This document shows, piece by piece, positions 36 through 45,269 of a DNA stretch of 64,000 bases. Origin of the DNA: an uncultured Nitrospiraceae bacterium (lineage in GTDB: Bacteria; Nitrospirota; Thermodesulfovibrionia; Thermodesulfovibrionales; Dissulfurispiraceae); contig CAIJNL010000002.1 in the NCBI GenBank assembly GCA_903822005.1, positions 124,001 to 188,000 on the forward strand, in the 5' to 3' direction. Both the position numbers and the translations under genes were made by a program. Position 1 is the stretch's first letter. Every line of letters starts with the position of its first letter. Below the pieces are notes generated by a model. It saw nothing but the letters and a program-made list of their open reading frames with translations, did not search any database and was not told where the DNA came from.

Positions 36-1187
36 TCACGACAGCACCAACACAGTGTTTATTCCGCTAAAGCCCGCATTTGTTACGAGCGCCTTGTGAC
101 CTTTGCAGGCATCCTGCTTTTCCGGAAAAGCCCAGCCCGCAGCATCATCATCCACATCCCTAAGATTTACTGTCGGAGGGACCTGCCGTGCCCTTATTGC
201 TCTTGCTGCAATAATCGTCTCAACAAGGCCCGCAGCGCCAAGGGTGTGGCCCAATGCTCCCTTTATGGAATATACCGGCACAGGCCCATTTGCGAATAAG
301 GTGCGATACGCCCTCATCTCCATCTGGTCATTATAGAGAGTACCAGTGCCATGAGCTGAAATAAAGCTTATATCATCCCTGCTGCAATCCGCGGAGTGCA
401 AAGCCCTTTCAAGAGCCAGTATCATTCCATCACTGGTACGTGACGGGCCGGTCATATGGTTTGCGTCATCGCTTAATCCCCAACCCGATATCTCCGCGAC
501 AATCTCCAGTCCCTCCCGCTTAGCCCTCTCACGGCTCATAATCAGCGCATAAGCCGCTGCTTCGCCCAGGCTCAGTCCGCTCCGCCCCTTGTCAAAAGGC
601 CTTGACGCTGTCTTGTCGAGCGCCATCAGAGATGAAAATCCCGCAAAAACAAACTCTGTAATACTGTCGCAGGCGACAACCAGCACGCAGTCTGCACTGC
701 CGCCCGAAATCATCAGGGCAGCACGAGCAACGGCAGAAGAAGCGGACGCACAGGCTGCAGAAATAATCGTCCCTCTGTCTTTTAACCCGGCCAGTGCGGA
801 CACCTTTCCGGGAAGGCCCGAGGCATCAAACTCTTTTTCATCACCTCTGCCTTCAAGGATCATCTTCTCGAGCAGGTCTATTTCGCCTTTTGTAGTAGCA
901 ACGAGCAGTTTGGCATCTCCGGGTAAAGGGTTTCTCATGCGCGCAAAGAGGACAGCAATCATCTGCATAACGAGAGATTCATTCCCATGATAGTCAAGGC
1001 CTTCAATGAACGCAGCACAATCCGATTGCAGCGACGCAGTATTAAACCTGTTCAGCCTCCTGATAGTGCTGACTTTGTCATGTATCCCACTCCAGCAGGC
1101 GTCAATACCCGGGCCGTATGGTGTCAGCATGTCACATGCAGTGATTACCGGTCTTATTGCGCGCGGTGGAATTCGCCCGTTTTCCAT
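36..1187 (-). CDS. 3-oxoacyl-ACP synthase (ketosynthase), APE-cluster type
   Basis: Condensing enzyme of the KAS I/II family, expected to extend an ACP-bound acyl chain with malonyl-ACP. The Cys-His-His set is visible: Cys146 in a SAACASAS nucleophile motif, His279 in SAHGTGT and His314 in KGALGHTLG. The C-terminal NAGFSGIN glycine turn is also typical. At 383 aa it is slightly short for FabF (about 410). I chose the ATG at 1187 over the GTG at 1199 because an AAAGGTG/AGGG ribosome site lies just upstream; either start overlaps the preceding thioesterase gene, which implies translational coupling. It is one of three intact ketosynthases in the cluster, and APE clusters also carry several. The family assignment is firm; the substrate is inference. 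Confidence 0.9.
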   Translation of the reverse strand: MENGRIPPRAIRPVITACDMLTPYGPGIDACWSGIHDKVSTIRRLNRFNTASLQSDCAAFIEGLDYHGNESLVMQMIAVLFARMRNPLPGDAKLLVATTKGEIDLLEKMILEGRGDEKEFDASGLPGKVSALAGLKDRGTIISAACASASSAVARAALMISGGSADCVLVVACDSITEFVFAGFSSLMALDKTASRPFDKGRSGLSLGEAAAYALIMSRERAKREGLEIVAEISGWGLSDDANHMTGPSRTSDGMILALERALHSADCSRDDISFISAHGTGTLYNDQMEMRAYRTLFANGPVPVYSIKGALGHTLGAAGLVETIIAARAIRARQVPPTVNLRDVDDDAAGWAFPEKQDACKGHKALVTNAGFSGINTVLVLS

Positions 1188-1639
1188 CGTTCCCTGCACC
1201 TTTCAAGAAGACTGGGAGAGATAATGCATACCTCCCCGGAAACCGCATCTGTCAACAGCTGCACCGTATAGCCGCTCACAGCAAGACTTCCATCCTGCTT
1301 CAAAAGATGGTATTCAGTATTAATTCGGGAGCCCTCATGCCAAACCATGGTCCCCCTGATTGTAAACTCTTCATCAAGGAAAAGAGATTTATAGTAGTCA
1401 ATATGGCATTCTACGACCGGGGCCCTGAGTCCCGCCAGATAAAAATCCTGAAACGAAAGGCCGCACTTCCTGCCGAGTTCAGCAGACACTTCTTCGAAAT
1501 AAAGTGGATACCGGCCGAACCATACGATCCCCATAACATCCACCTCGCTGAAATGCGTCCGCCTGCTTATATCTATGACAACCGGACCCGGCGCGTCAGC
1601 TGTGCGCTCAAAATAGACTGTTCTTCTCCTGGCAGCCAC
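1154..1639 (-). CDS. Acyl-CoA/ACP thioesterase, 4HBT hotdog family
   Basis: A 161-aa single hotdog domain. The segment HFSEVDVMGIVWFGRYPLYF carries the 4-hydroxybenzoyl-CoA thioesterase helix signature, including the catalytic-type Asp followed by G-V/I and an aromatic. The open frame runs upstream to 1849, but that part lies inside the dehydratase gene. The GTG at 1639 overlaps the dehydratase stop (TAGTG) and gives a normal-length protein, so I take it as the start. It probably releases acyl chains from ACP or CoA in the polyene pathway. Thioesterases of this type are standard in APE clusters. Substrate unknown. Confidence 0.85.
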   Translation of the reverse strand: MAARRRTVYFERTADAPGPVVIDISRRTHFSEVDVMGIVWFGRYPLYFEEVSAELGRKCGLSFQDFYLAGLRAPVVECHIDYYKSLFLDEEFTIRGTMVWHEGSRINTEYHLLKQDGSLAVSGYTVQLLTDAVSGEVCIISPSLLERCRERWKTGEFHRAQ

Positions 1640-2007
1640 TAAATACTCACCCTCAGTTTCAGCTCTGAAACCTTTTGGCTGTCCCTGCTCAAAGTTGCCT
1701 TGAGTATAAAATTCCGGCCTTCCTGTGCACTGCTGCATACGCATATAAGCTCCTCTGAGGGCAGCACCGGTGAGATGTATTTTGCCTGGATAATCTCTTT
1801 CAGGGTAACGGGGCGTTCTTTTGCCTTTTCGAACATAAGAGTAACGCACTGAATGTGGCAGACTCCGGGCAGCACCTTGCGGGAAGGGAAATGACCCTGA
1901 AATCCGATAAAATCCTCAGGAAATATAAAAACGGCCGTCAGGGCGTTACCGTCAACAGCGGTAAGTCCCTTCATGCACCGTTCAATGTCTCGTTTGATAA
2001 TACTCAT
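1639..2007 (-). CDS. 3-hydroxyacyl-ACP dehydratase-like hotdog protein (FabA/FabZ/ApeI type)
   Basis: A 122-aa hotdog protein with the FabZ/ApeI central motif GHFPSRKVLPGV, which supplies the catalytic His. The acidic residue that follows in FabZ (in a LQIE-like stretch) is replaced: here the sequence is CHIQ, so a classical His/Glu dyad is not obvious. ApeI-like proteins of APE clusters also differ at this point, so I favour an ApeI-like dehydratase or partner over housekeeping FabZ. It overlaps the lipoprotein gene upstream (ATGA junction at 2004-2007) and the thioesterase gene downstream. A second dehydratase domain sits in the radical SAM fusion at 5752-7227. Confidence 0.8.
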   Translation of the reverse strand: MSIIKRDIERCMKGLTAVDGNALTAVFIFPEDFIGFQGHFPSRKVLPGVCHIQCVTLMFEKAKERPVTLKEIIQAKYISPVLPSEELICVCSSAQEGRNFILKATLSRDSQKVSELKLRVSI

Positions 2008-2669
2008 TTGTAAATCTCCTTCAGCCTTATTATCAGCCTGTATGAAAACCTGAAATTGTCCATCACGATGCCGCCCGGATAAAGTTTTCCGTTATCGTCC
2101 ATGTACTCATAATATGATACCCGCCATACTGCAATATTATCCTCATAATAAGTCTTTTCAACCAGGCGATATCCGATTCCGGCAAAAGCATATTCCATTA
2201 TGCCCTTTCCTGACGGCTGCCTGAACAATATTCTGTATTTTTCCTTTTCCACAGTCGCATCAACGGCCGGTACAAGGTCGTAATAGATCCTTTTAATGTC
2301 CTCACCCACCGCCAGTGCAACATTGCCGCCCCTCTTCAGCTCATCCATTACAAAAGGGGCATTGATCTCTTCTTTATTCCCATACACCTCAAATATCTTG
2401 ACCCCCATATGGTTCATGCAGACAACAGAAAAAGTCCTCTCCCTGGTATCGACCTCTGCAAATCCGAGTCCTGAAAATGCCATGGGTCCGTAATGAAAAG
2501 TTATAGTCTGGAGCATCCGAAAGTTGTCCGGAGCGCTCTCTCTGAATTCATTGACGGCTGCGGTCGGATCAATATTAATTACCCTGGCATCCAGCGTCTT
2601 CTCAAAAGGAGCAGATGCGCAGCCAGCCAAAAAGAGCACGCATAATAATAAAATAAGCCTGGCCGTCAT
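2004..2669 (-). CDS. Outer-membrane-type lipoprotein, DUF3261-like
   Basis: A 221-aa protein with a short basic start, a hydrophobic stretch and a lipobox LFLAGC, so a lipid-modified Cys near residue 17. The rest is mostly beta-rich with no transmembrane segment. Small lipoproteins annotated DUF3261 occur beside the MMPL exporter and the LolA-like carrier in APE clusters, and this gene occupies that position with 4-nt overlaps on both sides. I infer a role in moving or anchoring the polyene lipid at the outer membrane. The lipobox is directly visible; the DUF assignment rests on context and general appearance. Confidence 0.65.
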   Translation of the reverse strand: MTARLILLLCVLFLAGCASAPFEKTLDARVINIDPTAAVNEFRESAPDNFRMLQTITFHYGPMAFSGLGFAEVDTRERTFSVVCMNHMGVKIFEVYGNKEEINAPFVMDELKRGGNVALAVGEDIKRIYYDLVPAVDATVEKEKYRILFRQPSGKGIMEYAFAGIGYRLVEKTYYEDNIAVWRVSYYEYMDDNGKLYPGGIVMDNFRFSYRLIIRLKEIYK

Positions 2670-5047
2670 GCCCTAACCTCTTTCGTTTGATTAAAGGCAA
2701 GCCGGTATAAATAAGGAATTACAAACAGTGATGAAAGACATCCCGTCACCAATCCTATCGTCATTGTGAGTCCTATATAGAACAGGGCCGGATGCTGGGC
2801 AAGGATAAGCACCCCTGTCCCAATAGTAGTTGCCACAGCCGAAAGGAATACTGCCATAACAATGCCGGCACGCGACCCGGACCTGCATTTGTATACCATA
2901 AATATCCCATAATCCACGCATATCCCCATAAGAGCTATGCCGGTTATTAAAGTGGATAGATTAAACGCAATGCCGAAGATGGACATGGCGCCAAACATCC
3001 ATCCAATGCTCGTTATAACCGGGACAAGGGCCAGGAGCAGTTCCTTCACATTTCTGAAATAGAGATACGTAAAAAGGACAACCAGTGATGCGGCAAGGGC
3101 CGTCATCATAATTACATCCGAATAGACCGCCGATGATATACGATTGGAGAGAGCTCCCGGAGAAACCACAAATGCCCCCTTGTAATTTTTGCTGATTTTG
3201 TACAAGGCGTCTACATAACGGTCCTCATCTGGGAAGAACGAGAGTACCTGATACCCGTCCCTGACTTTGTGTATAAACCTCTCCTGCAGCTTTAACATGA
3301 AATCGTCATTCCCGGTCATTCCAGGATCTTTTTTCTCCCTGTAAAGGTTATCAAAGAAAGGAGAAAAAGCCTCCTTAGTAAAACCATATTTCATCCCCTC
3401 TTTTTCTATAAGCCCTTTCAGCTTATCGGCCTTTCCCTGCCTCCAAAACTGTTTCCAGCGTTCGAAGTTTTCCTGGCGCGTCTTCTCCGATGGGAGCAGT
3501 GCCGACAGGCTTGAAAAACGCAATCCCTCAATCCCGAGAGCTTCTTTATATACTGCATCGTTCTGCTGGAGCGCAAGCTCGAGGTTTTCCCCCTGCGCAA
3601 TAAACACTGCTGTCTTGCTCTGGCCCCATACCTGCCTGAATTGCTCCTCATGTTTAAGAATGGCCGGCTCCGTGCCGTCGATCTTGTATATGTTATTATC
3701 GAACCTGACAGTGAACGCAAGGGCAATGAGTATTATGGTAGGTACCGCCCAAAGTCCGATTATGTATCTTCCTTTAATATAAACATGCTCCAGCCGTTCA
3801 CCTTCAAGAAACGGCATGCTTTTCTTTGATACAAAATGGGGAATGACAAGAAATGAAAATATAAAGGCCAGTGCGAGCCCGAACATCGTCATATATCCAA
3901 GCTGCCGGTATCCGTCCATTGTAGAGAAGAGGAAAGCGAAAAAAACAGCAAATGTGGTTACTGCTCCAATCAGTGTCGGCAGCAATATCTTTTTTACCTT
4001 CTCTTCGGGATTTTCCTTGTTCCTGGCCGCAACGTAAACCTGTATGCCATAATCGGCTGAAACGCCGGCCAGCATCGTGGCCAGGCCTACCACGGAATAG
4101 GAGAGCTCTCCCAAAAGGAGGTAGCACAAATAAATGGCCTGAAAAATAGTAAGGAGCGGAATGATAAAAATAAGGACTGCACGAAAGTCTTTAAAGGCAA
4201 AAAGAAAAAGCAATATGAAAGCGACTGCAGCGACACTGCTCGTAAGGGCTATATCTTTTTTCATTACACGTTCATTACTCAAACTATGGGCGTGTCCGCT
4301 GATAGTTATGGCCGTAACATACGCCGGAAGCTTCGCTATTTTATCATTCAGGTCCTCAAAAAGCCTCCTGCATCCTGCAGTATCAGTTGCAGGGATGCCG
4401 GTAGTCGCTATTATCATGGCATGCCTGCCGTCGCTGCTTATGAAGTGCCCGTCTTCCACATTGACCGTGTAGCCCATGGACGCGGAAAGAAATTTCAGCT
4501 TGTTCACTACAAGCATCGAGAGGCCGAGAGGATCGGCGCGCAGCATTGAACCCATTCCGATACCTTCGGGTTTGAGAAGAGTGAAATAATTTTTTTTCAT
4601 CCTCTCCGCCACGCTTTCCCGGTTTATCATGGCATCGATTGAGTCCATGTCCTTTCCGGTGAACAGATAGGGCATGCCGGTAAAGAAGGAGCCCATGCTC
4701 TCCGCCATTCGCAATTCCGACAGTCCGACCATGACCTTGGTAAAGTTGGGCGGCTGCAGCGAGGCTGCCAGCATGTCCGCGGCGGCAAAGAGGTCTCGTT
4801 TGTCCCTGTCAGGAGAGTTTAATTCGAGGGATATGACTACCTTGTTGGAGATCGGAGAATTTTTCAGGAATTCCATGCTCTGCGCTACTTCCGGGTCTGC
4901 CGGGAGCATAGACTCGATATTGCTGCTTAACTGAACAAACTGAAGCCCGGCAAATGAGGCCAGAGTGAGAAATACCATGGCTGCAAAGATTAGCCATCGT
5001 CTCCTGGAAGAAAACCTGTATATGATCTCAAAATAGCGGTCAAACAC
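2666..5047 (-). CDS. MMPL/RND-family exporter
   Basis: A 793-aa membrane protein with the repeated MMPL layout: one N-terminal helix, a periplasmic domain of about 200 residues, a block of five helices, then the same arrangement again. The family helix pattern shows in stretches such as GVSADYGIQVY and GICVDYGIFMVY, where the Asp-Tyr-Gly of each half is a conserved proton-relay site of hopanoid/lipid RND exporters. It starts at a GTG that overlaps the LolA-like gene. By analogy with APE clusters it exports the finished lipid-linked polyene from the inner membrane. Family firm, cargo inferred. Confidence 0.88.
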   Translation of the reverse strand: MFDRYFEIIYRFSSRRRWLIFAAMVFLTLASFAGLQFVQLSSNIESMLPADPEVAQSMEFLKNSPISNKVVISLELNSPDRDKRDLFAAADMLAASLQPPNFTKVMVGLSELRMAESMGSFFTGMPYLFTGKDMDSIDAMINRESVAERMKKNYFTLLKPEGIGMGSMLRADPLGLSMLVVNKLKFLSASMGYTVNVEDGHFISSDGRHAMIIATTGIPATDTAGCRRLFEDLNDKIAKLPAYVTAITISGHAHSLSNERVMKKDIALTSSVAAVAFILLFLFAFKDFRAVLIFIIPLLTIFQAIYLCYLLLGELSYSVVGLATMLAGVSADYGIQVYVAARNKENPEEKVKKILLPTLIGAVTTFAVFFAFLFSTMDGYRQLGYMTMFGLALAFIFSFLVIPHFVSKKSMPFLEGERLEHVYIKGRYIIGLWAVPTIILIALAFTVRFDNNIYKIDGTEPAILKHEEQFRQVWGQSKTAVFIAQGENLELALQQNDAVYKEALGIEGLRFSSLSALLPSEKTRQENFERWKQFWRQGKADKLKGLIEKEGMKYGFTKEAFSPFFDNLYREKKDPGMTGNDDFMLKLQERFIHKVRDGYQVLSFFPDEDRYVDALYKISKNYKGAFVVSPGALSNRISSAVYSDVIMMTALAASLVVLFTYLYFRNVKELLLALVPVITSIGWMFGAMSIFGIAFNLSTLITGIALMGICVDYGIFMVYKCRSGSRAGIVMAVFLSAVATTIGTGVLILAQHPALFYIGLTMTIGLVTGCLSSLFVIPYLYRLAFNQTKEVRA

Positions 5048-5747
5048 GATGTTCTATTCTGAAATAGCGCTCGTCGATAGGTACGTTCAGCTGGGTATTT
5101 TCGAACAATATCGTAGTAACGTCGCCGCTAAGCTCCCTGATAGTGATCTGGCTGAGGTAGCGTTCATCTTCACGAAAAGTCACTGTGACCGACTTTATCA
5201 CCTTTTTTGCGAAATTCCTGTCTTTCGGGGCAAACTCAATGATAAAAGGCTGCTGCTGCAAGATCCTGACATGATACTCTTCCTGCAGGCTGCTGAAACT
5301 GCCCGAGAACCAGGCAGTCATCTGTTTCAGTACTATCCTGAAAACGGGATTTCCTGAAAGAGAAATTTCCTGCACCTTGTCTGTGTCCTCATCCCACTGG
5401 CGGATAAATTTGTCTGTAATAAGGACCGAATATTTGACCGGCTTGTCCACATGCCACGCCACGCGGTTCGGTCGCTGCACATAAATGCGGCCTTTAAGAA
5501 CAATCTTGTTCCTGAAAACAGCAAGGTTCTTTTCCTGGGTGAACTCGGTACGCATACTCCTGAAATCAGCCATCTTTTTTTCGAGCCTCTGAAGCTGCTC
5601 GCTGATGTCCCGTTCATTTGTCTTATCTTCCCTCTCAACTCCGGCATTAGTGTCAGCGCCGGACACTGGCGCAGGAGCAAAGATGAAAGAGACTGCCAGA
5701 AAAGTCACCGTTAAAGTCGAAAACATTGCATTAATTCTGATATTCAT
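5040..5747 (-). CDS. LolA-like outer-membrane carrier protein
   Basis: A 235-aa secreted protein. Residues 1-30 form a signal peptide ending near VSGADT. The mature part has the LolA/LppC fold pattern: an N-terminal helix with F-x-Q/E (FRSMRTEFTQEKNL), then antiparallel strands with R/K-PxRxxW-like segments (VQRPNRVAWHV). LolA-like carriers are a standard component of APE clusters, where they presumably shuttle the lipid product across the periplasm together with the MMPL exporter encoded next door. An AAGGA site precedes the ATG. The two genes overlap by 8 nt. Confidence 0.82.
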   Translation of the reverse strand: MNIRINAMFSTLTVTFLAVSFIFAPAPVSGADTNAGVEREDKTNERDISEQLQRLEKKMADFRSMRTEFTQEKNLAVFRNKIVLKGRIYVQRPNRVAWHVDKPVKYSVLITDKFIRQWDEDTDKVQEISLSGNPVFRIVLKQMTAWFSGSFSSLQEEYHVRILQQQPFIIEFAPKDRNFAKKVIKSVTVTFREDERYLSQITIRELSGDVTTILFENTQLNVPIDERYFRIEHRV

Positions 5748-5751
5748 CTAT

Positions 5752-7227
5752 TTAGTCCTTGTGCCAGAGCTTTATCTCGCCCCTGGCGATCACTGTACCG
5801 TTTTTCCTGACTTCACCGGTAATGATCCCGATCTCACCATACCTGGCACTCTTATGAACAGCAACCTTCAGAGTATCGCCGGCACTGGCCGTCCCGAGGA
5901 CATCAAGGTTTTTTATGCCAACCAGAAACCCCTCGGATTGATAAGTCTTGTCCCCGAGGTTCCTGAAGCCTTCCCTGGCAGCAATGGCCTGTGAAATTAT
6001 CTCGGGATATGCTGCGGCATCGAGCTTTCCGTCCTCATCCAAAAAGAGGTTGTCCTCTTTGACATCTATTTCGCAGACAGACTCCCTCTCGCCGATATCA
6101 AGCACCCTGTCTACCATGAGCATGGGCGCCTTGTGAGGCACCACATCCGCCGCATCAAAGGGAAGGCGTACGATGTCATCCAGTTTGTCGATGTTCTTCC
6201 AGCAGAGAGGATCGGAAGTAAGATAGTCACCCGTAGTCTGATATGCGGCGCCCCTGCAGCCGTAACATTCGTCCAGCCTCGTACACTCTTTGCACGGCCC
6301 CTTCATTTTCAGGCGGTAGTTCCTGAGGTCCTTCACTATCTCGCTGTCCCTGATGATGTCCTTGAGGTTCTTGTCCCGCACATTACCGACAGGAATGGTC
6401 ACTCCTACGCAGGGCTGCACATATCCCTGACTGTTCACAAGGCAGGAGAACTGGTGTCTCAGGCACTGTCCGCTCACAAGCGGCGGCTGCGGCGTCCAGT
6501 CAAACCCATACTTCTCTTTGTCGATTTTCGCAATGCCGGCGAAAAACTCCTTCATCCTGGCAGTATCAACCTCAAGGGCTTTATTCCCATTTGCGCTTCC
6601 CTGGGGAGTTATCATCTCGAAGAAAGGATTGATCTGCTGGTCCCGCAGCCATTGCCACATCGTAACAAGTTCATCAATATTATACCCGCTAATGACAGTG
6701 CTGATTCCCATGGGGCATCCATTGGGATAGCCTGCGGCCTTGAGATTCCGGAATGCATCCTGAATCTGGCCGTATGCTCCCTTAACCCCGGAAAGTATAT
6801 CCTGTATTTTTTCATCGAAGGAGTTCATCTTGAGGACGACCACCACTCCGTGTTCGTATAAAAAACGTGCCGTATCGGGCGTTATATTGGCCCCGTTTGT
6901 AAAGATCTCTACCTCAAGGCCAAGATCCCGTATGAAGCGGATCATATCAAGTATATGTGGATAAAGCATGGGCTCCCCGCCGAGGATAATGATCTTGCGC
7001 ACACCCATGTCCATGCCCTGAAGTATCACCCTCTGCTGTTCTTCAAGGGTCAGTTCATTTTTGTTGCAGGAACCATTAGTATCGCCTGTATAGCAATAAA
7101 TGCATTTGAAATTGCAGTCACTGTTAAACTCGATTTCCAGGGAAAGAAGCCGGTCCTCACGGATAGCCAGGTCAATGTCCTCCCGTGAAAATTCCGCCCC
7201 GTATATCCTGTTACGGCATGTTGACAT
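5752..7227 (-). CDS. Radical SAM/SPASM enzyme fused to a C-terminal hotdog (dehydratase-like) domain
   Basis: A 491-aa two-part protein. The N-terminal radical SAM domain has the [4Fe-4S] motif Cys38-x3-Cys42-x2-Cys45 (CNFKCIYC) and a GGEP motif (LGGEPMLYP). It is followed by a Cys-rich SPASM-type region at about 255-350 (CLVNSQGYVQPC, then CKECTRLDECYGC and a final Cys). From about residue 360 the sequence becomes a hotdog domain similar to ApeP/FabZ-type dehydratases (VVPHKAPMLMVDRVL and a GDTLKV strand near the end). I set the start at the ATG 7227 because an AGGAG site sits 8 nt before it; the longer frame would need a TTG inside that site. It overlaps the ligase gene by 17 nt. SPASM enzymes usually modify peptides or small molecules. 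A fusion to a fatty-acid dehydratase fold is unusual and suggests action on an ACP-bound intermediate (inference). Confidence 0.85.
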   Translation of the reverse strand: MSTCRNRIYGAEFSREDIDLAIREDRLLSLEIEFNSDCNFKCIYCYTGDTNGSCNKNELTLEEQQRVILQGMDMGVRKIIILGGEPMLYPHILDMIRFIRDLGLEVEIFTNGANITPDTARFLYEHGVVVVLKMNSFDEKIQDILSGVKGAYGQIQDAFRNLKAAGYPNGCPMGISTVISGYNIDELVTMWQWLRDQQINPFFEMITPQGSANGNKALEVDTARMKEFFAGIAKIDKEKYGFDWTPQPPLVSGQCLRHQFSCLVNSQGYVQPCVGVTIPVGNVRDKNLKDIIRDSEIVKDLRNYRLKMKGPCKECTRLDECYGCRGAAYQTTGDYLTSDPLCWKNIDKLDDIVRLPFDAADVVPHKAPMLMVDRVLDIGERESVCEIDVKEDNLFLDEDGKLDAAAYPEIISQAIAAREGFRNLGDKTYQSEGFLVGIKNLDVLGTASAGDTLKVAVHKSARYGEIGIITGEVRKNGTVIARGEIKLWHKD

Positions 7228-8527
7228 CTGAAGTTCTCCTGTCCACAAAATGGTTTATTTTCCTGGAATTGCCCGGAAAAATCATTTTTCTGATCTCTTC
7301 CCCGCTCGCCACAACGACCTCTGGCCGCACCCTGAGACGCGCCTGGAGCCGTTCGGATATTATACCAGAAGAGCACATAGTATCATTACCCGAAACATAT
7401 ACCTTCACGATGTCCGACAGGTCATAATTGCTGCTCACCTCCACGCAATATTCCGTGATACCCGTTATCTCATCCAGCACCGCGTATATTGCATTGGGAT
7501 AGATGGTTGTCCCGAGGAACTTGATCATCTGATTTTTCCTGCCAAGTATGGGCCCAAGTCGCGGAGAATTCCTGCCACAGCCGCACCGGTCATCCAAAAG
7601 AAAGCTCACATCTCCTGTCCTGTATCGCAAAAGCGGCATGCCCTCGATATGCAGAGGGGTGACAACCACTTCTCCGGTCTCGCCCGTCGGCAGCACTCTA
7701 CCCTTTTCATCGACAATTTCAACTATCGCAAGTTCGGGGTGGAGATGCCCCCCCTGACGGCAGGAACATTCGCAAAAACTGGTTATCGTCTCTGACGATG
7801 CATAGGTTGAATAAGCCTTTGCACCCCAAATCTCCTCAATGCTTTCTCCGACTTTCAGCAGGGCAAGGGCCCTGTCCCTGACCGGCTCTCCTATGCATAT
7901 CAGTTTCGAAACTCCCATCTCCCGTGGATCAACGTCCCTTGAGAGCAGATAGCGGCCAAGTTTCAGCAGCAGGGTCGGAACGCCGATAAGCACGGTCGGA
8001 CGTATCCGCCGGATAATATCAAGATGACTCTCCAGACTGCTTAGCCCATTCCTTATGACAGCGGCCCCAAGACTCCTTGCCCCCGAAAAATATGCAAGTC
8101 CCGCGATAAAACATCTGTCTATCGTGCATGTCAAAAGAACAATATCCTCGGGTGTCAGCCCGCATCCCAGAAAAGATATCTCTTCGTTATATGCGAGCCG
8201 CTGAAGATCGTTCTCGGTATACATTACCCTTGCCGGATTTCCTGTCGTCCCGGATGAGAGCACTATATCTACAATCCTGGACATGGGGACCGCCAGAAAG
8301 TCGTCATTAAATTCGCTAAACAGGGTTTTATCGGTGAATGGGAGTGAAGTGATGTTTCCAAGCTCCAAACTGGCTGTACCGCAGTCAAACCCTCTAAGGG
8401 TCCTCCTGTAATATGGAGAATTTGCCAGAAGGAATTCAAGGTGTTTTCTGAAAAGCCTTTCCTGGACTTTGCGGATCTCATCCGGCGCAAGGAATTCGGT
8501 TCCCCTGTAGTCATATAGTCCGCTCAT
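7211..8527 (-). CDS. PaaK-like adenylate-forming ligase (phenylacetate-CoA ligase family)
   Basis: A 438-aa ANL-superfamily enzyme of the phenylacetate-CoA ligase/F390 synthetase branch. Visible motifs are the P-loop-like LSSGTTGNPARVMY, the adenylation motif TYASSETIT, the R-TGD motif LLRYRTGDVS, and a Cys cluster CGCGRNSPRLG that binds zinc in this branch. It should activate a carboxylic acid, often aromatic, as acyl-AMP and pass it to CoA or ACP. Here it is the likely starter-unit activator for polyene synthesis; no ammonia-lyase gene for making a 4-hydroxycinnamate-type starter is visible in the window. The start overlaps the acyltransferase stop (ATGA). Confidence 0.85.
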   Translation of the reverse strand: MSGLYDYRGTEFLAPDEIRKVQERLFRKHLEFLLANSPYYRRTLRGFDCGTASLELGNITSLPFTDKTLFSEFNDDFLAVPMSRIVDIVLSSGTTGNPARVMYTENDLQRLAYNEEISFLGCGLTPEDIVLLTCTIDRCFIAGLAYFSGARSLGAAVIRNGLSSLESHLDIIRRIRPTVLIGVPTLLLKLGRYLLSRDVDPREMGVSKLICIGEPVRDRALALLKVGESIEEIWGAKAYSTYASSETITSFCECSCRQGGHLHPELAIVEIVDEKGRVLPTGETGEVVVTPLHIEGMPLLRYRTGDVSFLLDDRCGCGRNSPRLGPILGRKNQMIKFLGTTIYPNAIYAVLDEITGITEYCVEVSSNYDLSDIVKVYVSGNDTMCSSGIISERLQARLRVRPEVVVASGEEIRKMIFPGNSRKINHFVDRRTSDVNMP

Positions 8528-9276
8528 ATTCCATTCTCCATCTGATTAAGTTCCGTTATGATACGCTCACGGACCATATTCTTCAGGTTAAAAACGCTCA
8601 AGTCTTTATATTCCTCCCACTTTATGGCAGGCAGCCTGCGCACCCTGATTGTTCCGGGACGCAATAAAAGCGAGCCTTTAGGGGGAATATTCTCATTGCC
8701 CGATATGCAGAGAGGAACGATAGGCGTCCGGGACATGAGGGCAAGCCTGAACGCGGCCCCGTGAAAGTTTCCGACTCTTCTGCTCCCTGATCTCGTCCCC
8801 TCGGGGAAGAAGACTATCGACACTTTATCTTTAAGCAGAGTGACCGCTTTTTCGAAAAAAACATCGGATTGCATGTTATTTATATTAAGATAACCCGACA
8901 ACCTGGCATAAAATCCTAAAACCGGAAGGCGAAAGGGCCAGGAATTGACGATCTGGATCACTTCATGGGGAAGTACGCACATTAAAAAGGCATCAGAAGT
9001 AGACCTGTGATTGCAGACAAAGATAAAAGGCTCCGGCAGAGGTTCTTCTTTCGAGAAGTCCTCGTACCGCAGCTTTATAAAACACGCGGCAATTGCTGCT
9101 ACCGATTTCCCATACCAGCTAATGGCGCGACGGAAGCGTTTCATGGTCTGGCGCGCCGAAAGGAATATGCGCATAAGCGCTACGAGAAACGTCAAGACAG
9201 GGATAACCACTGCAGAAACCGCTAAAAAGGCAATGTAGAAATAGATATTCCACACTGCCAGACTGAATCTGTTCAT
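8524..9276 (-). CDS. PlsC-family (LPLAT) acyltransferase
   Basis: A 250-aa protein with one or two N-terminal membrane helices (residues about 8-38). It has the catalytic motif NHRSTSD (His90, Asp95) followed by FFPEGTR (Glu159), the standard blocks I and III of glycerophosphate/lysophosphatidate acyltransferases. Such enzymes occur in APE clusters and probably esterify the polyene acyl chain onto a lipid carrier. The ATG overlaps the ACP stop codon (TAATG), so it is translationally coupled. Confidence 0.88.
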   Translation of the reverse strand: MNRFSLAVWNIYFYIAFLAVSAVVIPVLTFLVALMRIFLSARQTMKRFRRAISWYGKSVAAIAACFIKLRYEDFSKEEPLPEPFIFVCNHRSTSDAFLMCVLPHEVIQIVNSWPFRLPVLGFYARLSGYLNINNMQSDVFFEKAVTLLKDKVSIVFFPEGTRSGSRRVGNFHGAAFRLALMSRTPIVPLCISGNENIPPKGSLLLRPGTIRVRRLPAIKWEEYKDLSVFNLKNMVRERIITELNQMENGI

Positions 9277-9542
9277 TAGCTGCCCGAAACCTCTTTCTTG
9301 TTCTTTACCTCTATGATGAATTGATAGATGTCCTGAAGAGTACGTATGTCCCTGATCTTCTCTTCTTCCCTTATCTGTATACCAAAGCTCTTCTGAAGAG
9401 CCACTACCAGGTCGACTATGTCCAGGCTGTCCAGCCCCAGGTCTGTAAAGATATGGGCATCTGGTTTCAGAAGCGCCCTGTCTTTTTCAAAAGACTCTTC
9501 AAATACCATATTAACTTTCTCAATAATTTCCTGCTCAGTCAC
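9276..9542 (-). CDS. Acyl carrier protein
   Basis: An 88-aa helical acidic protein with the phosphopantetheine attachment motif DLGLDSLDIVDLV; Ser39 is the modified residue. It is the carrier for intermediates in this half of the cluster, between the ketosynthase and the acyltransferase genes. A second ACP is encoded at 17102-17344. APE clusters also carry two ACPs, so the divided arrangement fits that model. Confidence 0.93.
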   Translation of the reverse strand: MTEQEIIEKVNMVFEESFEKDRALLKPDAHIFTDLGLDSLDIVDLVVALQKSFGIQIREEEKIRDIRTLQDIYQFIIEVKNKKEVSGS

Positions 9543-9571: not shown

Positions 9572-10801
9572 TTATAATCCGTCATATCTTCTGCATGCCA
9601 GTGTAGCATTGATGCCGCCAAAGGCAAATCCGTTCTTCAGGATCAACAGTATGTCCTTTGGCATACTCTCCATCACATGCATAATACCCCTGCAGTCAGG
9701 GTCTACATTTTCAAGATTTCGTGTTGGATAAATAACTGATTTCTCCATCATCAGCAGCGACGCAATTAATTCGATTGCTCCTGACGCTCCGAGTGTATGT
9801 CCGATATGTCCTTTAAGGCTGCTGACTGGCACGGAATCGCCGAAGAGTTCCCTGATCGCCTCGGCCTCTTCCTTGTCACCCTGCAGCGTTGCGGTGGCAT
9901 GAGCATTTATATAATCCACATCCTCCGGCAATGATCGGGCCTCTTGCAACGCGTCGCTCATGCACCGGACCATAGACGCTTTATTGGACTGGCTTAGATG
10001 AGCGCCATTTCCGCTAGTACTATAGCCGACGATTTCAGCATATATCCGTGCGTTTCTGGCAAGCGCCCTGTCCAGGCCCTCTAATACCAGTATCCCGCTT
10101 CCGTCACCGCAGACCAGTCCGTCCCTGTCACGGTCAAACGGCCGGGGTGTCCTGTCCGGGGTCTGATTATACGCGGAAGATGTCGCAAAAAGCACATCAA
10201 AAGAGCCCGTCACCGTCGGGTGCAGCTCCTCGGCCCCCCCGCAAAGCATTATGTCCTGCCGCCCCGTCCTGATCAGATCATATCCGGTGCCAAGCGCATG
10301 GAGCGCCGACGCGCAGGCTGCAGAAGTCGACATGATATATCCGTTCAGCTCCAGATACTGAGCGACATTTGCGGCTGCGGTATGAGACATACACTGAAAG
10401 AAAAGGGACGATCCAAGCTTGCCAAGGTCCCTGTCAGGGAGCATTGTTTCAAACACCTCGGTTATGCTCTTCGCGCTCCCCATTGTCGAGCCTACAACAC
10501 AGCCCGTCCTCAGCCTGGGTATATCGGCAAAGGCGATGCCTGCATCAGCCAGGGCCTGTTCTGCCGCCTGAACTGCATAAATGCTCAGGATACCCATGGA
10601 GCGCCTTTTTTCCCGCGGGATCTTCTTCTCGTCCTTCATTTCGGAAGGTGCTCCTACATGGCTTCGCATCCCCTTATAAACGTCCCAGCCCTCCATATAC
10701 CGCACTGCACTGCGATTCTCTTCAAGTCCTTCCATAAGGGACTTTGTGCCGTATCCAAACGGCGAGACGACTCCAACCCCGGTTATCACGACCCTCTTCA
10801 T
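9572..10801 (-). CDS. 3-oxoacyl-ACP synthase (FabF-like ketosynthase)
   Basis: A 409-aa full-length KAS II-like enzyme beginning MKRVVITGVGVVSPFG. The catalytic set is complete: Cys163 (SAACASA), His301 (NAHATAT) and His335 (KGHIGHTLGASG). The C-terminal NGFAFGGINA glycine turn is present. It most resembles the main extending ketosynthase of the cluster. The start overlaps the stop of the FAD oxidoreductase gene by 4 nt. Role in polyene extension is inferred from the operon. Confidence 0.92.
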   Translation of the reverse strand: MKRVVITGVGVVSPFGYGTKSLMEGLEENRSAVRYMEGWDVYKGMRSHVGAPSEMKDEKKIPREKRRSMGILSIYAVQAAEQALADAGIAFADIPRLRTGCVVGSTMGSAKSITEVFETMLPDRDLGKLGSSLFFQCMSHTAAANVAQYLELNGYIMSTSAACASALHALGTGYDLIRTGRQDIMLCGGAEELHPTVTGSFDVLFATSSAYNQTPDRTPRPFDRDRDGLVCGDGSGILVLEGLDRALARNARIYAEIVGYSTSGNGAHLSQSNKASMVRCMSDALQEARSLPEDVDYINAHATATLQGDKEEAEAIRELFGDSVPVSSLKGHIGHTLGASGAIELIASLLMMEKSVIYPTRNLENVDPDCRGIMHVMESMPKDILLILKNGFAFGGINATLACRRYDGL

Positions 10802-12300
10802 CTGCGGGGCCTCCGATTCAGGAATTTGGCGTAATCATCCTCTTTTACAAGAGACTGGGCCACAATTAAAGAGGACATCATAGCGCCTATGACTCCGGGC
10901 AGGATTGAACTCTGCCCCGCTGCATAGCAATTTTTGACTGGAAGTCTGCCTCTCAGGTTGAACTGACCTATTTTTTGCTTCACACCATAAGATGAGCCAT
11001 CGTTATTATGCAGATAATCCCTGAACGTGAGGACAGATGCTGCATCCGATACACTGAGTTTGCCCCTGTACCCGGGGAAATATTTATAAATACGATTGAG
11101 CAGATGTTCGACCTTTTTCTCCTTATATTCCTTATAGGCTTCGGGCCTCCTGCCTACCTGAGAATCCTTCCATGCCTCCACCTGCTCGGGAAACGACGGC
11201 TCTATCGCAACTATCACCTTATGCTTCTTTTCACCCACCTGCTCAAGTGTCTTTACAAGGATTAGCGCAGAGTCACCCTCATTAAAAGGGTCCAGCATCT
11301 GGTTAAAATCGGTGCCTGGAAGGAGGGTTACAAGCTTTGAGCCATAGCCGGGCTCGTCGAATCCCGGATCAAGGACACCAAAAATTGAAAAGCAGCCTGC
11401 AGAGGGTTCAAACGCGGAGACCCTCGCTCTGAAGGCCTTGCTGACCTGCTGCTCCGGCATGACCTTCAGGACCTCTTTCGGATGTATAGTGAAGATGCAG
11501 TTTGTTGCAGAAATTTCTTCTCCGGTGTTAAGGATAAAGCGTCCGGCCATGTTTTCACGAATCTCCGTCATGCCGGTGACATGGCATCCGCAACGGACTT
11601 CTACATCGTACTGCCTGAATTTGGCCTCAAACGCGTCTATGAATGCGGCCCCTCCGTTTTTAACACGTGCAACTGATTCGTAAAGACCGTACGAAATTCT
11701 GCTGTGATTGGCAAAGGAGATCTCATTCGGCTTAACACCGTAACACATGGCAAACGTCGAAAAAAGGGCTTTCAGCACAGGGTTTGCGGTGATACCCGTG
11801 AGTACTTCTTCACAGGTAATGTAGTCTTCCTGCAGTGGGTCGAATTTATTTAACAGCGTACCCAACGACATTGACGGAGTCCCTTTGCATACATTTTGAA
11901 CCTTGTCGAAATACGAATCAATCCCACAAGCCTCTTCCGGAAAATAGGCCTTCATCCGTAGCTTCAGCTTCTCGATTCCATAGGGCATATCGTACCGCTT
12001 GCCGTCATTCTCAAAGACAAAGCTGTTCGCGTCATCGTCCGACATAAATACCGGTTCGATACCGTCATGCATGTCCAGCACCGACAGGATATCATCCAGA
12101 ATCCCGCCTTTGTGGAGCCCGCCCGTAAAATGGAAACCTGTGTCGAACGGGATGCCGCGTTTAGAGAACCTCGCCATAGAGCCGCCAATATAGGGCCCCT
12201 TCTCGATCAGCAGCACTTTATGCCCGTTCATGGCGAGAATCAGGCTCATCGTCATCCCGCTGATTCCGCTGCCTATAACAATGTCGTCGTATCTAATCAT
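10798..12300 (-). CDS. FAD-dependent oxidoreductase, phytoene desaturase/CrtISO-like
   Basis: A 500-aa flavoprotein with an N-terminal dinucleotide-binding motif (DIVIGSGISGMTMS, then LLIEKGPYIGGSM) and the C-terminal FAD motif GVIGAMMSSLIVAQS characteristic of the carotenoid desaturase/isomerase and retinol saturase group. In carotenoid pathways these enzymes desaturate or isomerise conjugated chains. In this cluster it could act on the polyene chain (inference); such a gene is not part of the core APE set that I know. A GGATGG site precedes the ATG. There is a 128-bp gap upstream. Confidence 0.85.
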   Translation of the reverse strand: MIRYDDIVIGSGISGMTMSLILAMNGHKVLLIEKGPYIGGSMARFSKRGIPFDTGFHFTGGLHKGGILDDILSVLDMHDGIEPVFMSDDDANSFVFENDGKRYDMPYGIEKLKLRMKAYFPEEACGIDSYFDKVQNVCKGTPSMSLGTLLNKFDPLQEDYITCEEVLTGITANPVLKALFSTFAMCYGVKPNEISFANHSRISYGLYESVARVKNGGAAFIDAFEAKFRQYDVEVRCGCHVTGMTEIRENMAGRFILNTGEEISATNCIFTIHPKEVLKVMPEQQVSKAFRARVSAFEPSAGCFSIFGVLDPGFDEPGYGSKLVTLLPGTDFNQMLDPFNEGDSALILVKTLEQVGEKKHKVIVAIEPSFPEQVEAWKDSQVGRRPEAYKEYKEKKVEHLLNRIYKYFPGYRGKLSVSDAASVLTFRDYLHNNDGSSYGVKQKIGQFNLRGRLPVKNCYAAGQSSILPGVIGAMMSSLIVAQSLVKEDDYAKFLNRRPRR

Positions 12301-12428: not shown

Positions 12429-13151
12429 CTATATTGCCAATCCGCCGTTAATGCCGATAACCTGTCCATGTATATACATATGCTCTTCGGTACAAAGAAA
12501 ATTCACAACAGAAGCGACATCTTCCGGCTTGCCCAAACGGTTAATCGGTATCAGGTTCAGTATCTGTTCCTTTGGCAGCCCTGCGGTCATGTCTGTCTCG
12601 ATAAAACCGGGAGCAACCACATTAACGAATATGTTCTTCTTGCCGATCTCCCGCGCAAGCGCCCTGGCAGCTCCGATCAACCCGGCCTTTGAGGCCGAAT
12701 AGTTGACCTGTCCTGCCTGCCCGATCTGTCCCGAAGTGGACGATACCACGATGATATGCCCTCTTTTTGCCTTGAGCATGGGAAACATCAGCATACGAGT
12801 CACGTTATAAAAGCCATCCAGGTTTGTGGAAATAACGGAATCCCATTCGTCCCTCGTCATCCAGACCATGAGATTGTCCCTGGTGATACCGGCATTATAG
12901 ACAAGCACATGCGGCGTGCGTTCTTCCACTTTTTTGGCAAGGGCAGCTTCCGTCTCCTCGTAGTTCGATATATCGAACCGGAGCAATTCACAGGACCTGC
13001 CAAGACCCTCTATCATGGCTTTGACTTCCTCCGCGGCCACTGTATTGCTTTTATAGCCAATCCAGAGATCAAAGCCCGATTTCGCGAGCCGGACCGCTAT
13101 TGCCCGACCTATTCCACGGCTGCCGCCTGTAACAAAAGCTATCTTATTCAT
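12429..13151 (-). CDS. 3-oxoacyl-ACP reductase (FabG-like SDR)
   Basis: A 240-aa short-chain dehydrogenase. The NAD(P) motif TGGSRGIG is at residues 8-15 and the NAG motif at about 86-88. The catalytic Ser138, Tyr151 and Lys155 are in VSSTSG and YSASK. The C-terminus reads INGGLAI, as in FabG/ApeQ. It should reduce the beta-keto group after each condensation in the polyene pathway. It is the first gene of the minus-strand operon and faces a divergent radical SAM gene across 223 bp. APE-cluster ketoreductases belong to this family. Confidence 0.92.
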   Translation of the reverse strand: MNKIAFVTGGSRGIGRAIAVRLAKSGFDLWIGYKSNTVAAEEVKAMIEGLGRSCELLRFDISNYEETEAALAKKVEERTPHVLVYNAGITRDNLMVWMTRDEWDSVISTNLDGFYNVTRMLMFPMLKAKRGHIIVVSSTSGQIGQAGQVNYSASKAGLIGAARALAREIGKKNIFVNVVAPGFIETDMTAGLPKEQILNLIPINRLGKPEDVASVVNFLCTEEHMYIHGQVIGINGGLAI

Positions 13152-13374: not shown

Positions 13375-14745
13375 ATGTCAGGAAATGAAGTACTCAATAT
13401 CATAAGAAATAAACTCTTCTATGGTTCAACGGATTATACCAAGAGCCAGCCGGACCTGTTTACTCCTCACAAATTCAGGATTGTAGCGCCGTCGCAGGCA
13501 GAAAACTTCCTCGAAATAGTGAAAGAAAGCCTGACTGGTGAAGAAGAAGTACTGGTGTATGTGCACCTGCCTTTCTGCTTTTCCGAATGTTTATTCTGCA
13601 ATTCCTTTCCCTTCAAGGTTGACAGAGAGGCGCAAGACGAGTATTTAAGCAATCTGTTGAAGGAGATTGAGCTCACGGCCAAACATGGTCTTTTTGCCGG
13701 CAGGAAAGTGCGCTGCGTATATTTGGGGGGCGGCACTCCTACCTCATTCGCCAACCGCGACATAAAGCAGATACTGGACAAGCTGTCATCAAGCATGGAT
13801 CTGGCGGCTGACTGCAATATAACCTCTGAAGCCCATCCGCTGACACTCCCTGACAAAAACAGGATAAAAGAATTAAGCGCTATCGGCATAAACAGACTGA
13901 GCTGCGGCTGTCAGACTTTCGATCCCGAGATACTTCAGAGATGCAACCGCCAGAACACCCCCGCACAGATAGAAAGAATTGTGAGGGATGCCCAGGATGC
14001 CGGCATGACGATAAATATCGATATGATGACAGGACTTCCGGGGCAGACCATGGAGAGTGTAAAAAAGGACCTTTCTATCCTCGAAAAAATACGGCCTGAT
14101 GCTGTTGAGTATATCAGGCATGAAATAGTAAACCCGCTTGTCGTGAAACTGTATCAGGACAATCCCGGCCTGGTAGTAGACAATGACACCCTTTTCGAAA
14201 TGGTATATGTCACTCAGGAATGGATGAGCACAAACGGATATGAACAGAACGGCAGGTTTACTAATGATAAGCAGTGGCCCTACAGGTACTACTGGTTGAA
14301 GGAAATGCCCATAATAGCCTTCGGTTCGCGTGCAAGGTCCTATACAAGAACTATCTGCTATGACAAGCACGAAGAACTGACTACGTATTCTCATATGATC
14401 AGGAAAGATATCGTGCCAATCGGCAGATATATTACCCTTTCCGAGCGCGAGCAGATGTACCGTTCTCTCCTGCTGCAGCTGCAATTAAAAAGCGGCCTTG
14501 ATATGAACCTGTTCCGCGCCAGATTCAACAGGGACCCCCTCGAAGTTTTTTCGAAGCTTTATTCCACGCTGAGCGAGTATGGCTGCCTTAAGCAGGAAGA
14601 CGGCGGCATATGCCTGACCAAATACGGGGCATATTTTGTCGAAGACGTCTGCGACTATATTATAGATGCCGTGCTGAAAGAAGAATCAGATTCTCTGATA
14701 AGAACTCCTCACTCGGTGGGTGGTACTTCTTCAAGACTGACCTGA
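13375..14745 (+). CDS. HemW/HemN-like radical SAM protein
   Basis: A 456-aa radical SAM protein of the coproporphyrinogen oxidase-like group. It has Cys68-x3-Cys72-x2-Cys75 (CFSECLFC), the YLGGGTPT motif, and a HemN-type C-terminal region from about residue 350. It opens the plus-strand arm of the cluster and lies 7 nt before a ketosynthase gene. The linkage makes a biosynthetic role on the polyene or its head group more likely than haem synthesis, but that is inference. Related HemW proteins can be methyltransferases, cyclases or haem chaperones, so no reaction is claimed. A TAGGA site precedes the ATG. Confidence 0.82.
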   Translation: MSGNEVLNIIRNKLFYGSTDYTKSQPDLFTPHKFRIVAPSQAENFLEIVKESLTGEEEVLVYVHLPFCFSECLFCNSFPFKVDREAQDEYLSNLLKEIELTAKHGLFAGRKVRCVYLGGGTPTSFANRDIKQILDKLSSSMDLAADCNITSEAHPLTLPDKNRIKELSAIGINRLSCGCQTFDPEILQRCNRQNTPAQIERIVRDAQDAGMTINIDMMTGLPGQTMESVKKDLSILEKIRPDAVEYIRHEIVNPLVVKLYQDNPGLVVDNDTLFEMVYVTQEWMSTNGYEQNGRFTNDKQWPYRYYWLKEMPIIAFGSRARSYTRTICYDKHEELTTYSHMIRKDIVPIGRYITLSEREQMYRSLLLQLQLKSGLDMNLFRARFNRDPLEVFSKLYSTLSEYGCLKQEDGGICLTKYGAYFVEDVCDYIIDAVLKEESDSLIRTPHSVGGTSSRLT

Positions 14746-14752
14746 CCTGCCC

Positions 14753-15931
14753 ATGAGGAACTCTGATATGCTCATAACCGGACTGGGCGTAATATCAGCT
14801 GCCGGCAATAACCTTTCCGAAACTCTCGATTCTTTTGCCAGCGGACAGAGAAACTGCGGACCTTTGACCCTTTTCCCTTCACAGCTGCCATATCCGGTTT
14901 TTGAAGTCAAAAACCTGCCTGATAATTACTATCTTGAAGGCCGGCGGACGCTGAGCCTTGCCATGATCGCAGTTGATCAGGCCCTTGCTGATGCCAGGCT
15001 TTCGGACATTCCGAAATACAGGATCGGCGTCTGTCTGGGAACAACCGTTGCGAGCCAGCTGAACGATCTGCAATTTTACATGACCTACCGCGAGAAAAAT
15101 TCCGCCCCAATGACAGCAGCCGACAGGTTCCTCAAAGGCAATCTTGCGGAATATGTCAGCCGCAGGATCGGTGCGCGAGGCCCTCAGCTGACTGTAGTAA
15201 ATGCCTGCTCCTCAGGGACCGACGCTATAGGCGTGGCGCTATCATGGCTCAAAAGCGATCTTTGCGATATAGTAATTGCTGGAGGCGCTGATGAACTTAA
15301 TCATATCCCATATTGCGGCTTCAGCTCCCTCGGTATAGTAAACCCCGGCTTATGCGCCCCATTCGACCGTGACCGCAAAGGACTTAACCTCGGCGAAGGC
15401 GCCGGGATTATGATCATAGAAAAACAATCAGTTGCCAAAATCAGGGGAGTCACTTCAGATCTTTTCCTTGCGGGCTTTGGCGCTTCAGGCGATGCATATC
15501 ATCTTACCGCTCCAAGTCCTGAGGGAATCGGGCTCAAGGCCTCGCTTCGTTCAGCACTTGCCGAAGCCGGCATCCAACCTGGGGAGATTGCTTTCATCAA
15601 TGCGCATGGCACCGGCACTCTCGACAATGACCTGGTTGAAGGTAATGTCCTCGCCGATATTTTCGGGCAGGCCGTCAAAATGCTCTCGACAAAGGGATAC
15701 ACCGGGCATACGCTCGGCGCAGCCGGCGGAATAGAGGCCGCGTTTACCGCCGCCGGACTAAGGTATGGATGGATCCCGGCCAGCGCAGGTTTCGAGAACA
15801 GGGATGAAGCCATTCCGCTCTCACCAGTCGGCGAAAAGACTTCTGTCAGCGGACAATACGCCATATCGACTTCACTCGCCTTTGGCGGAAACAATGCGGC
15901 TGTCCTGCTTGGTCTCGAAAACATAAAATGA
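14753..15931 (+). CDS. 3-oxoacyl-ACP synthase (ketosynthase partner of the KS/CLF pair)
   Basis: A 392-aa ketosynthase with an intact catalytic set: Cys152 in VVNACSSGTD, His285 in INAHGTGT and His319 in KGYTGHTLGAAG. It overlaps the next gene, a ketosynthase-like protein lacking the active Cys, by 4 nt. That arrangement is the KS-alpha/chain-length-factor pair of type II polyketide and APE systems, so the two probably work as a heterodimer. Confidence 0.92.
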   Translation: MRNSDMLITGLGVISAAGNNLSETLDSFASGQRNCGPLTLFPSQLPYPVFEVKNLPDNYYLEGRRTLSLAMIAVDQALADARLSDIPKYRIGVCLGTTVASQLNDLQFYMTYREKNSAPMTAADRFLKGNLAEYVSRRIGARGPQLTVVNACSSGTDAIGVALSWLKSDLCDIVIAGGADELNHIPYCGFSSLGIVNPGLCAPFDRDRKGLNLGEGAGIMIIEKQSVAKIRGVTSDLFLAGFGASGDAYHLTAPSPEGIGLKASLRSALAEAGIQPGEIAFINAHGTGTLDNDLVEGNVLADIFGQAVKMLSTKGYTGHTLGAAGGIEAAFTAAGLRYGWIPASAGFENRDEAIPLSPVGEKTSVSGQYAISTSLAFGGNNAAVLLGLENIK

Positions 15932-16998: not shown

Positions 16999-17014
16999 TC
17001 TCTCATCCATCTGT

Positions 17015-17043
17015 TTGAATAAATACCGGACATCGGATATAAT
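17015..17043 (+). promoter_or_regulatory. Sigma-70-type promoter before the second ACP gene
   Basis: TTGAAT at 17015-17020 and a perfect TATAAT at 17038-17043 are separated by exactly 17 nt. This lies in the 100-bp gap after the chain-length-factor gene, so the ACP, condensation-fold, FAD and probably radical SAM genes can be transcribed independently of the ketosynthase pair. Confidence 0.75.
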
Positions 17044-17101
17044 TCCCTGACAACGCTGACGCGTTTTAGCGCATTTCCTTCTTTCGCGAGGATGCTTGAT
17101 T

Positions 17102-17344: not shown

Positions 17345-17356
17345 TACCTGCCATTT

Positions 17357-19875: not shown

Positions 19876-19962
19876 CAAAGCTGTTTGATATTTGAAGGCT
19901 GAATGTATAAACTTGATGTTAACAAATGCCGGTAATTTTCGATTGTATTGAAAGGGGTGTAA

Positions 19963-45182: not shown

Positions 45183-45269
45183 TATGACCTCTTTCCGGTT
45201 GCCCAAAATCTGTATCGCTATTGCGTTTTATTGTCAGCATTACAGGCAGCCTCAAAACCAGTGCAATCC

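Follow-up and report, generated by a model that had tools for sequence, protein, structure and literature searches.

What does an enzyme act on when it carries a radical SAM/SPASM enzyme and a dehydratase-like hotdog domain in one polypeptide, and to which known chemistry is it related? This question is raised by a gene at positions 5752-7227 of the window, the 64,000-nucleotide stretch of DNA analysed here. The original prediction described this gene as one continuous frame with both parts, in a cluster that has acyl carrier proteins (ACPs). The gene row bears out that setting, with genes for ACP, ketosynthase (KS) and ketoreductase (KR), and its members are as follows (all on the minus strand).

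36-1199, minus strand: beta-ketoacyl synthase KS_a
1154-1849, minus strand: 4HBT-type thioesterase
1639-2007, minus strand: ApeI-like hotdog protein of 122 aa, proposed partner subunit, with GHFP histidine H39 and Q53 at the acid position (alignment, profile, model)
2004-2669, minus strand: outer-membrane LolB-like lipoprotein (DUF3261, weak match)
2666-5047, minus strand: MMPL/RND-type exporter
5040-5747, minus strand: LolA-like carrier (NCBIfam LolA2_flexi, 120.7 bits against a cut-off of 125)
5752-7227, minus strand: radical SAM, SPASM and ApeP-like hotdog protein of 491 aa (ORF, Pfam, alignment, model)
5752-6165, minus strand, within the preceding gene: ApeP-like hotdog half, about residues 355-491, with E409 and Q413 and no GHFP histidine (alignment, model, profile)
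7211-8527, minus strand: AMP-forming ligase of FlxY/phenylacetate-CoA ligase type, the adjacent upstream gene, which overlaps the fusion frame
8524-9276, minus strand: acyltransferase of the LPLAT family
9276-9542, minus strand: acyl carrier protein
9572-10801, minus strand: beta-ketoacyl synthase KS_b
10798-12300, minus strand: CrtI/phytoene-desaturase-like flavoprotein
12429-13151, minus strand: FabG-like ketoreductase

Architecture of the fused protein

The reading frame is uninterrupted on the minus strand, spanning 5752-7248 with a TTG start or 5752-7227 with an ATG start that gives 491 codons and has an AGGAG a few bases 5' of it; ORF analysis thus agrees with the single frame originally predicted, including its start and end. 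Within the 491-aa protein, Pfam places Radical_SAM (PF04055) at residues 34-191 (85.1 bits, cut-off 29.5) and SPASM (PF13186) at residues 255-316 (33.6 bits, cut-off 21.5). The radical SAM motif C38-x3-C42-x2-C45 is conserved across the aligned fused rows, with C42 and C45 in 95/95 and C38 in 93/95 (the other two rows are gapped at this position), and the GGEP motif is likewise retained. The seven-cysteine auxiliary-cluster motif of SPASM proteins takes the form CX9-15GX4C, CX2CX5CX3C and a last C. The SPASM region of the fused protein holds C255, C262, C273, C312, C315, C321, C324 and C342, and the elements C255-x12-G-x4-C273, C312-x2-C315-x5-C321-x2-C324 and C342 are each found in 95/95 rows, with one spacing of x2 in this family as against x3 in the general pattern. 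Both the superfamily and the subfamily tests place the fused protein among the SPASM enzymes of the radical SAM superfamily.

An AlphaFold2 model based on 56 aligned sequences (pLDDT 90.9, pTM 0.89) shows hotdog strands and a central helix at residues 374-489, immediately after the SPASM region. When superposed with VIA-align, residues 355-491 fit ApeP (6qsr_B) with Z 19.9 and rmsd 2.1 over 137 aligned residues, and also fit anammox and other FabZ structures with Z about 19, while the remaining half fits the SPASM enzymes SuiB (Z 25.9), SkfB and anSME with Z 23 to 26. Pfam, the predicted structure and the superpositions together confirm the two folds, and the original concern that the C-terminal part might lack the hotdog fold did not come true. 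The Pfam match to the ApeP-like family (PF22817) at residues 359-455 (E 4.8e-5) reaches 23.4 bits, below the membership cut-off of 27, and such a match at E <= 0.001 is found in 18/56 members of the fused family; the hotdog half is named ApeP-like here from fold and profile, without formal PF22817 membership.

The fusion architecture of 5752-7227 is near certain. A sequence search of solved chains found no PDB chain spanning both halves, and the literature searched, in which subscription journals were mostly uncovered, yielded no description of an enzyme with this architecture, in keeping with the earlier statement that no established enzyme joins the two. The fusion is a new architecture within a known kind of cluster, and each of its halves is of a known kind.

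Distribution of the fusion

The original prediction proposed a search for the fusion elsewhere, with the possibility that homologues would always show two separate genes. The search instead recovers a conserved family and no isolated oddity, with the identical fusion in 84 distinct records (95 rows, 11 of them duplicates). A contig scan finds the whole fusion in 80/80 of the best 80 of 238 relatives, a ranking that favours full-length matches. Of 14 fusions added from a genome search, 11 are presumed second copies of loci among those 80, and four unfused loci (L027-L030) are excluded from the 95 rows. By record title, the carriers belong to Nitrospirota, Deltaproteobacteria, Geobacteraceae, Omnitrophota, Kiritimatiellae, Lentisphaerae, Spartobacteria and Planctomycetota, which overall amounts to Nitrospirota, Desulfobacterota/Geobacterales, Omnitrophota and PVC-group bacteria. 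One carrier, L114, is filed as a strain record without a metagenome-assembly label. Matches at E <= 1e-40 are present in 20/395 genomes of the same phylum, the window's own genome counted; 15 of these extend through the hotdog part and five end at about residues 350-365. Within the order to which one Geobacteraceae carrier belongs, 6/141 genomes have the fusion, at full length in 6/6.

The join itself is nearly constant. The last SPASM cysteine is separated from P364 by 21 residues in 89 of the 95 rows, by 19 in four and by 20 in two, so that one half always follows directly on the other. The idea that an assembly or sequencing error joined two genes, for which we found no support beyond the existence of unfused radical SAM relatives, is rejected on the recurrence of the same join and spacing throughout the distinct records, and we give it practically no credence. 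In a tree that includes 26 fused proteins, hand-chosen from the 95 rows, these proteins form a single clade with support of 100/100, which fits one fusion event; the outgroups and the loci L013 and L031 are long branches in this tree, which does not resolve the unfused group. The outgroup candidate L007 was left out for its length, and two distant unfused relatives with unrelated neighbourhoods (G224 and G005, 34% and 30% identical) were used in the tree only.

A candidate dehydratase shared between two proteins

The active site of a FabZ-type dehydratase pairs the GHFP-motif histidine of one dimer partner with an acid of the other, placed where the central helix begins. A FabZ homodimer carries both in one chain, and the fused hotdog domain does not. 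E409 at the catalytic-acid position is invariant along with Q413 and A416 (95/95 fused rows), and the fused-protein alignment has no GHFP motif in this domain and no conserved histidine between D392 and E409. The fused half, being ApeP-like and devoid of the GHFP histidine, is therefore not expected to be a complete dehydratase alone. Of the "ApeP/FabZ-like" label originally given to this domain, the ApeP-like part stands, while a FabZ-like activity by the domain alone does not, as it resembles one half of a heterodimer. The motif VVPHKAPML, previously cited for this domain, fails as a catalytic signature, since H365, the histidine of its "PHK", is replaced by Gln in 35/95 rows.

The complementary residue is found in the ApeI-like protein at 1639-2007. 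Its family has a GHF motif with H39 in 58/58 rows, and the acid position is Gln in 48/58 and Glu in 3/58; these rows, which include the window and contain duplicates, come from 92 searched loci, of which 34 gave no match (contig ends truncate many of them), and a single match of at least 200 aa was left out. A model of the window's ApeI-like protein shows hotdog elements (pLDDT 93.8). Profiles of the two proteins converge on the two chains of one solved complex, with the fused protein finding 6qsr_B as its best dehydratase match (E 2.9e-16) and the ApeI-like protein finding 6qsr_A as its best solved match (E 2.6e-10); the title of 6qsr is 'The Dehydratase Heterocomplex ApeI:P'. According to the available text of PMC8041823, ApeI and ApeP are heterodimeric dehydratases that share a single active site. 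The sequence features of the pair described here match such a split site, with the acid in the fused half and the histidine in the ApeI-like protein. An ApeI-like gene is present in 43/53 loci with at least 5 kb of downstream sequence. In the other 10 a motif scan for a diverged copy nearby gave no convincing candidate, so the partner may sit elsewhere or be dispensable in these loci, which counts against a strict need for it.

The fusion lies in a row that reads KR, CrtI-like, KS, ACP, LPLAT, ligase, fusion, LolA, MMPL, LolB-like, ApeI-like, thioesterase and KS. Beyond the left edge of the window the operon goes on with the N-terminal half of a KS, three B12-type radical SAM genes and genes for a glycosyltransferase, an acyltransferase and an ACP. 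LolA is adjacent to the fusion in 67/74 loci with enough sequence. No enoyl reductase was seen in the cluster, and a polyene product is therefore expected. Given this absence and the resemblance of the export genes to those in flexirubin and aryl polyene clusters, the product is likely to be an outer-membrane polyene lipid.

Several further features of the neighbourhood were noted. Left of the window, a 227-aa protein (L011:15356-16039) that adjoins KS_a contains the ketosynthase N-terminal half only (PF00109), and a homologue of it is found in 36/43 fused loci where the sequence is long enough. NCBIfam AmcF, a subunit of cispentacin biosynthesis, also matches KS_a (212.5 of 325 bits), and AmcE, named as a cyclizing decarboxylase of that pathway, gives a weak match with the ApeI-like protein (E 0.0072). 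In four Nitrospirota loci (L052, L053, L055 and L056) the acyltransferase is followed directly by the fusion and no ligase gene was seen. Beside the fused operon, a second, divergent module occupies 13375-21459 on the plus strand and encodes a HemN-like radical SAM protein, two KS-type proteins, an ACP, a 438-aa protein (17357-18673, plus strand) with no Pfam or NCBIfam match, an FAD oxidoreductase and an HpnR-like B12 radical SAM protein; other fused loci, among them L039, L114 and L126-L128, contain parts of this module. At 44442-45206 and 45270-46013 (minus strand) lie neighbouring genes for two similar proteins, each of about 250 aa, an apparent tandem duplication.

The reading that we favour, with moderate confidence, is that a ladderane-type SPASM radical SAM enzyme is joined to an ApeP-like half-dehydratase that the ApeI-like protein completes, such that radical chemistry and dehydration take place on one ACP-bound chain. 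It builds on what was computed: a fusion conserved across its carriers, catalytic residues that complement each other, the operon around the gene, and a radical SAM half akin to an anammox enzyme that is described below. We infer that the ApeI-like protein and the fused hotdog domain would form a heterodimeric 3-hydroxyacyl-ACP dehydratase, in which H39 of the former and E409 of the latter would make up one composite active site and act on the ACP-bound chain extended by the KS, KR and ACP of the cluster. The hotdog half may also dock the acyl-ACP and thereby let the radical SAM half reach the same tethered chain; in the model, the radical SAM barrel is joined to the hotdog domain without a long linker, which would hold it near that chain. 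Most conjectural are the radical reaction and its substrate: the radical SAM half could abstract a hydrogen and so desaturate or isomerise the chain or form a C-C bond. Dehydration and a radical step may be directly coupled, as first suggested for this gene.

The hotdog half might instead be a catalytically dead scaffold for ACP docking or dimerisation, with dehydration performed by another dehydratase of the genome. This would be in line with the missing GHFP histidine, with the loci that have no ApeI-like gene and with a FabZ-like match elsewhere in the window's genome (G000:C21:65580-65960, E 3.7e-4). However, a pure scaffold would not require the acid-position E409 and the helix residue Q413 that every fused row retains, and the ApeI-like gene is usually present, which makes this explanation improbable in our view. 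When unfused clusters were searched for a free-standing ApeP-like gene, an HMM of the fused-set hotdog domain gave weak FabZ-like matches only (L142, E 2.8e-4; L045, 0.0037; L140, 0.0056; L046, 0.01). Matches of the same HMM to LolA in L012 and in the window (E about 1e-5) were taken as chance.

Kinship with the anammox ladderane locus and comparison with known systems

The original prediction did not mention that the radical SAM half has relatives in ladderane loci. The alignment of fused proteins finds matches in 7/294 Planctomycetota genomes, and three matching genomes (G496, G666 and G576) contain the anammox marker HZS_alpha. The anammox enzymes, at L140-L142, are unfused, are 42-44% identical to the radical SAM half of the window and have a FlxY-type ligase gene on one side and a B12-type radical SAM gene on the other. 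This relationship is reciprocal. The fused alignment at E <= 1e-60 finds only the ladderane-type locus in G496, and the G496 enzyme in turn finds the window gene first in the window's genome (E 3.5e-100, the next match being 9.2e-22). The gene order at L140 is KS, KS-like, methyltransferase-sized, KS, unknown, ligase, radical SAM, B12 radical SAM, KR and ACP, followed by FabZ, methyltransferase-sized, MMPL, CrtI-like and glycosyltransferase, where the two methyltransferases are named from place and size only. This order agrees with that of kuste3349 to kuste3335 in the available text of PMC4790861 and PMC2649909, and the anammox counterpart of the window's radical SAM half would be Kuste3343, as assigned from gene order.

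The ladderane-type character of the window's gene row is further supported by TIGR04072 (NCBIfam rSAM_ladder_B12, cut-off 360), which scores 440 bits with the anammox B12 gene and 624.8 bits with a gene further along the same row, left of the window (L011:12730-14091); a TIGR04072-type homologue of at least 40% identity is present in 32/40 fused loci with enough sequence. Judged by sequence, the radical SAM half belongs to the Kuste3343-type family of ladderane loci. Two unfused loci have a FabZ-type gene in the cluster (152 bits in L045 and 114.3 bits in L140, cut-off 113), and in L140 and L142 the FabZ genes retain both His and Glu. The operon FabZ of G496 differs from the solved Kuenenia FabZ (8ayd).

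We also note an unfused, anammox-like locus of ladderane type in three Nitrospirota genomes (L045 in G333, L046 in G222 and L047 in G353); the enzyme of G333 shares 62% identity with its counterpart in an HZS-positive genome, as against 46% with the fused enzyme of the window. The available text of PMC9902471 describes ladderane lipids as strictly tied to anammox genera, and ladderane-like clusters outside anammox bacteria as already known through genome mining.

The main rival to our reading is suggested by the adjacent ligase gene: a starter-unit role, in which the radical SAM half would make or alter a starter acid that the FlxY-type ligase activates, and the dehydratase half would recruit the first ACP intermediate or equalise protein amounts. 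The ligase is directly upstream in 55/70 fused loci with at least 1 kb of upstream sequence and also adjoins the unfused enzyme in L045-L048 and in the anammox loci L140-L142, and an ApeI-ligase fusion in the available text of PMC8041823 offers a precedent. Aromatic ammonia lyase (PF00221), considered as the source of an aryl starter, was found in 0/8 fused genomes, the window's own not included, with the control positive in 5/14; that source is rejected, and any aryl starter would need another origin. The remaining 15/70 loci have no adjacent ligase (it is elsewhere in the locus in five, and none was seen in ten), and the radical SAM enzyme is fused to a dehydratase half rather than to the ligase, so we regard a starter-unit role as rather unlikely. 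The ApeI-ApeH precedent (PMC8041823, available text) also implies that fusing one half to a pathway enzyme does not in itself prove coupled chemistry. The fusion may reflect merely co-expression or docking, by analogy with ApeI-ApeH, which lacks a radical SAM partner.

Our favoured reading of radical chemistry and dehydration on one ACP-bound chain bears on a gap in the ladderane route, as no new product appeared when the Kuenenia genes were expressed in E. coli, with Kuste3342 and Kuste3343 undetected there, according to the available text of PMC4790861. We tentatively extend it to a broader proposal, which we hold as a possibility on the doubtful side: the Kuste3343-type enzyme might work in concert with dehydration on a 3-hydroxyacyl or enoyl chain still bound to the ACP, steering each new double bond or joining carbons during growth rather than cyclising a finished polyene, and the non-anammox clusters would in that case use this chemistry to produce a radical-modified polyene lipid of an undescribed kind. 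If this is true, the fusion would be a Rosetta stone for the ladderane locus, as it hints at what the radical SAM enzyme there may act on. Tying this radical SAM family to a dehydratase half also points to acyl-ACP as a substrate class that can be tested and defines a two-protein system for expression, and the ladderane-like clusters outside anammox bacteria are seen to include a distinct fused lineage, with L114 among its members.

Among named systems, AhbD, NirJ, PqqE, SuiB and anSME share the core fold and the auxiliary-cluster cysteines with the window protein, but they have no hotdog domain, and the window protein scores far below every NCBIfam equivalog cut-off shown (the best being AhbD, 133 of 500 bits). 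Flexirubin and aryl polyene clusters have in common with the window cluster a FlxY-like ligase (447.7 of 520 bits), a LolA2-like carrier, an MMPL exporter and KS, KR and ACP genes, although the FlxY-like and LolA2-like scores are under their cut-offs and the window cluster adds radical SAM genes, which flexirubin clusters, to our knowledge, lack. The ApeI:ApeP heterocomplex of aryl polyene clusters (6qsr) has the same fold and is the best dehydratase profile match for both hotdog parts; ApeP is a separate chain there, whereas the ApeP-like part of the window forms the C-terminus of a radical SAM enzyme, and the ApeI chain has Asp at the acid position, which is mostly Gln in the ApeI-like family. 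The ApeH-ApeI fusion of Acinetobacter baumannii (PMC8041823, available text) likewise joins half of a heterodimeric dehydratase to a pathway enzyme, but its partner is a ligase and its half is ApeI, as opposed to a radical SAM enzyme and an ApeP-like half in the window. The Kuenenia ladderane locus, as described in the available text of PMC2649909 and PMC4790861, shares with the window the SPASM family together with a ligase, a TIGR04072 radical SAM protein, KS, KR, ACP, MMPL and a CrtI-like protein; in loci of this type the anammox enzyme is unfused and a separate operon FabZ carries both His and Glu, whereas in the window the acid is part of the radical SAM polypeptide and the histidine is found in the ApeI-like protein.
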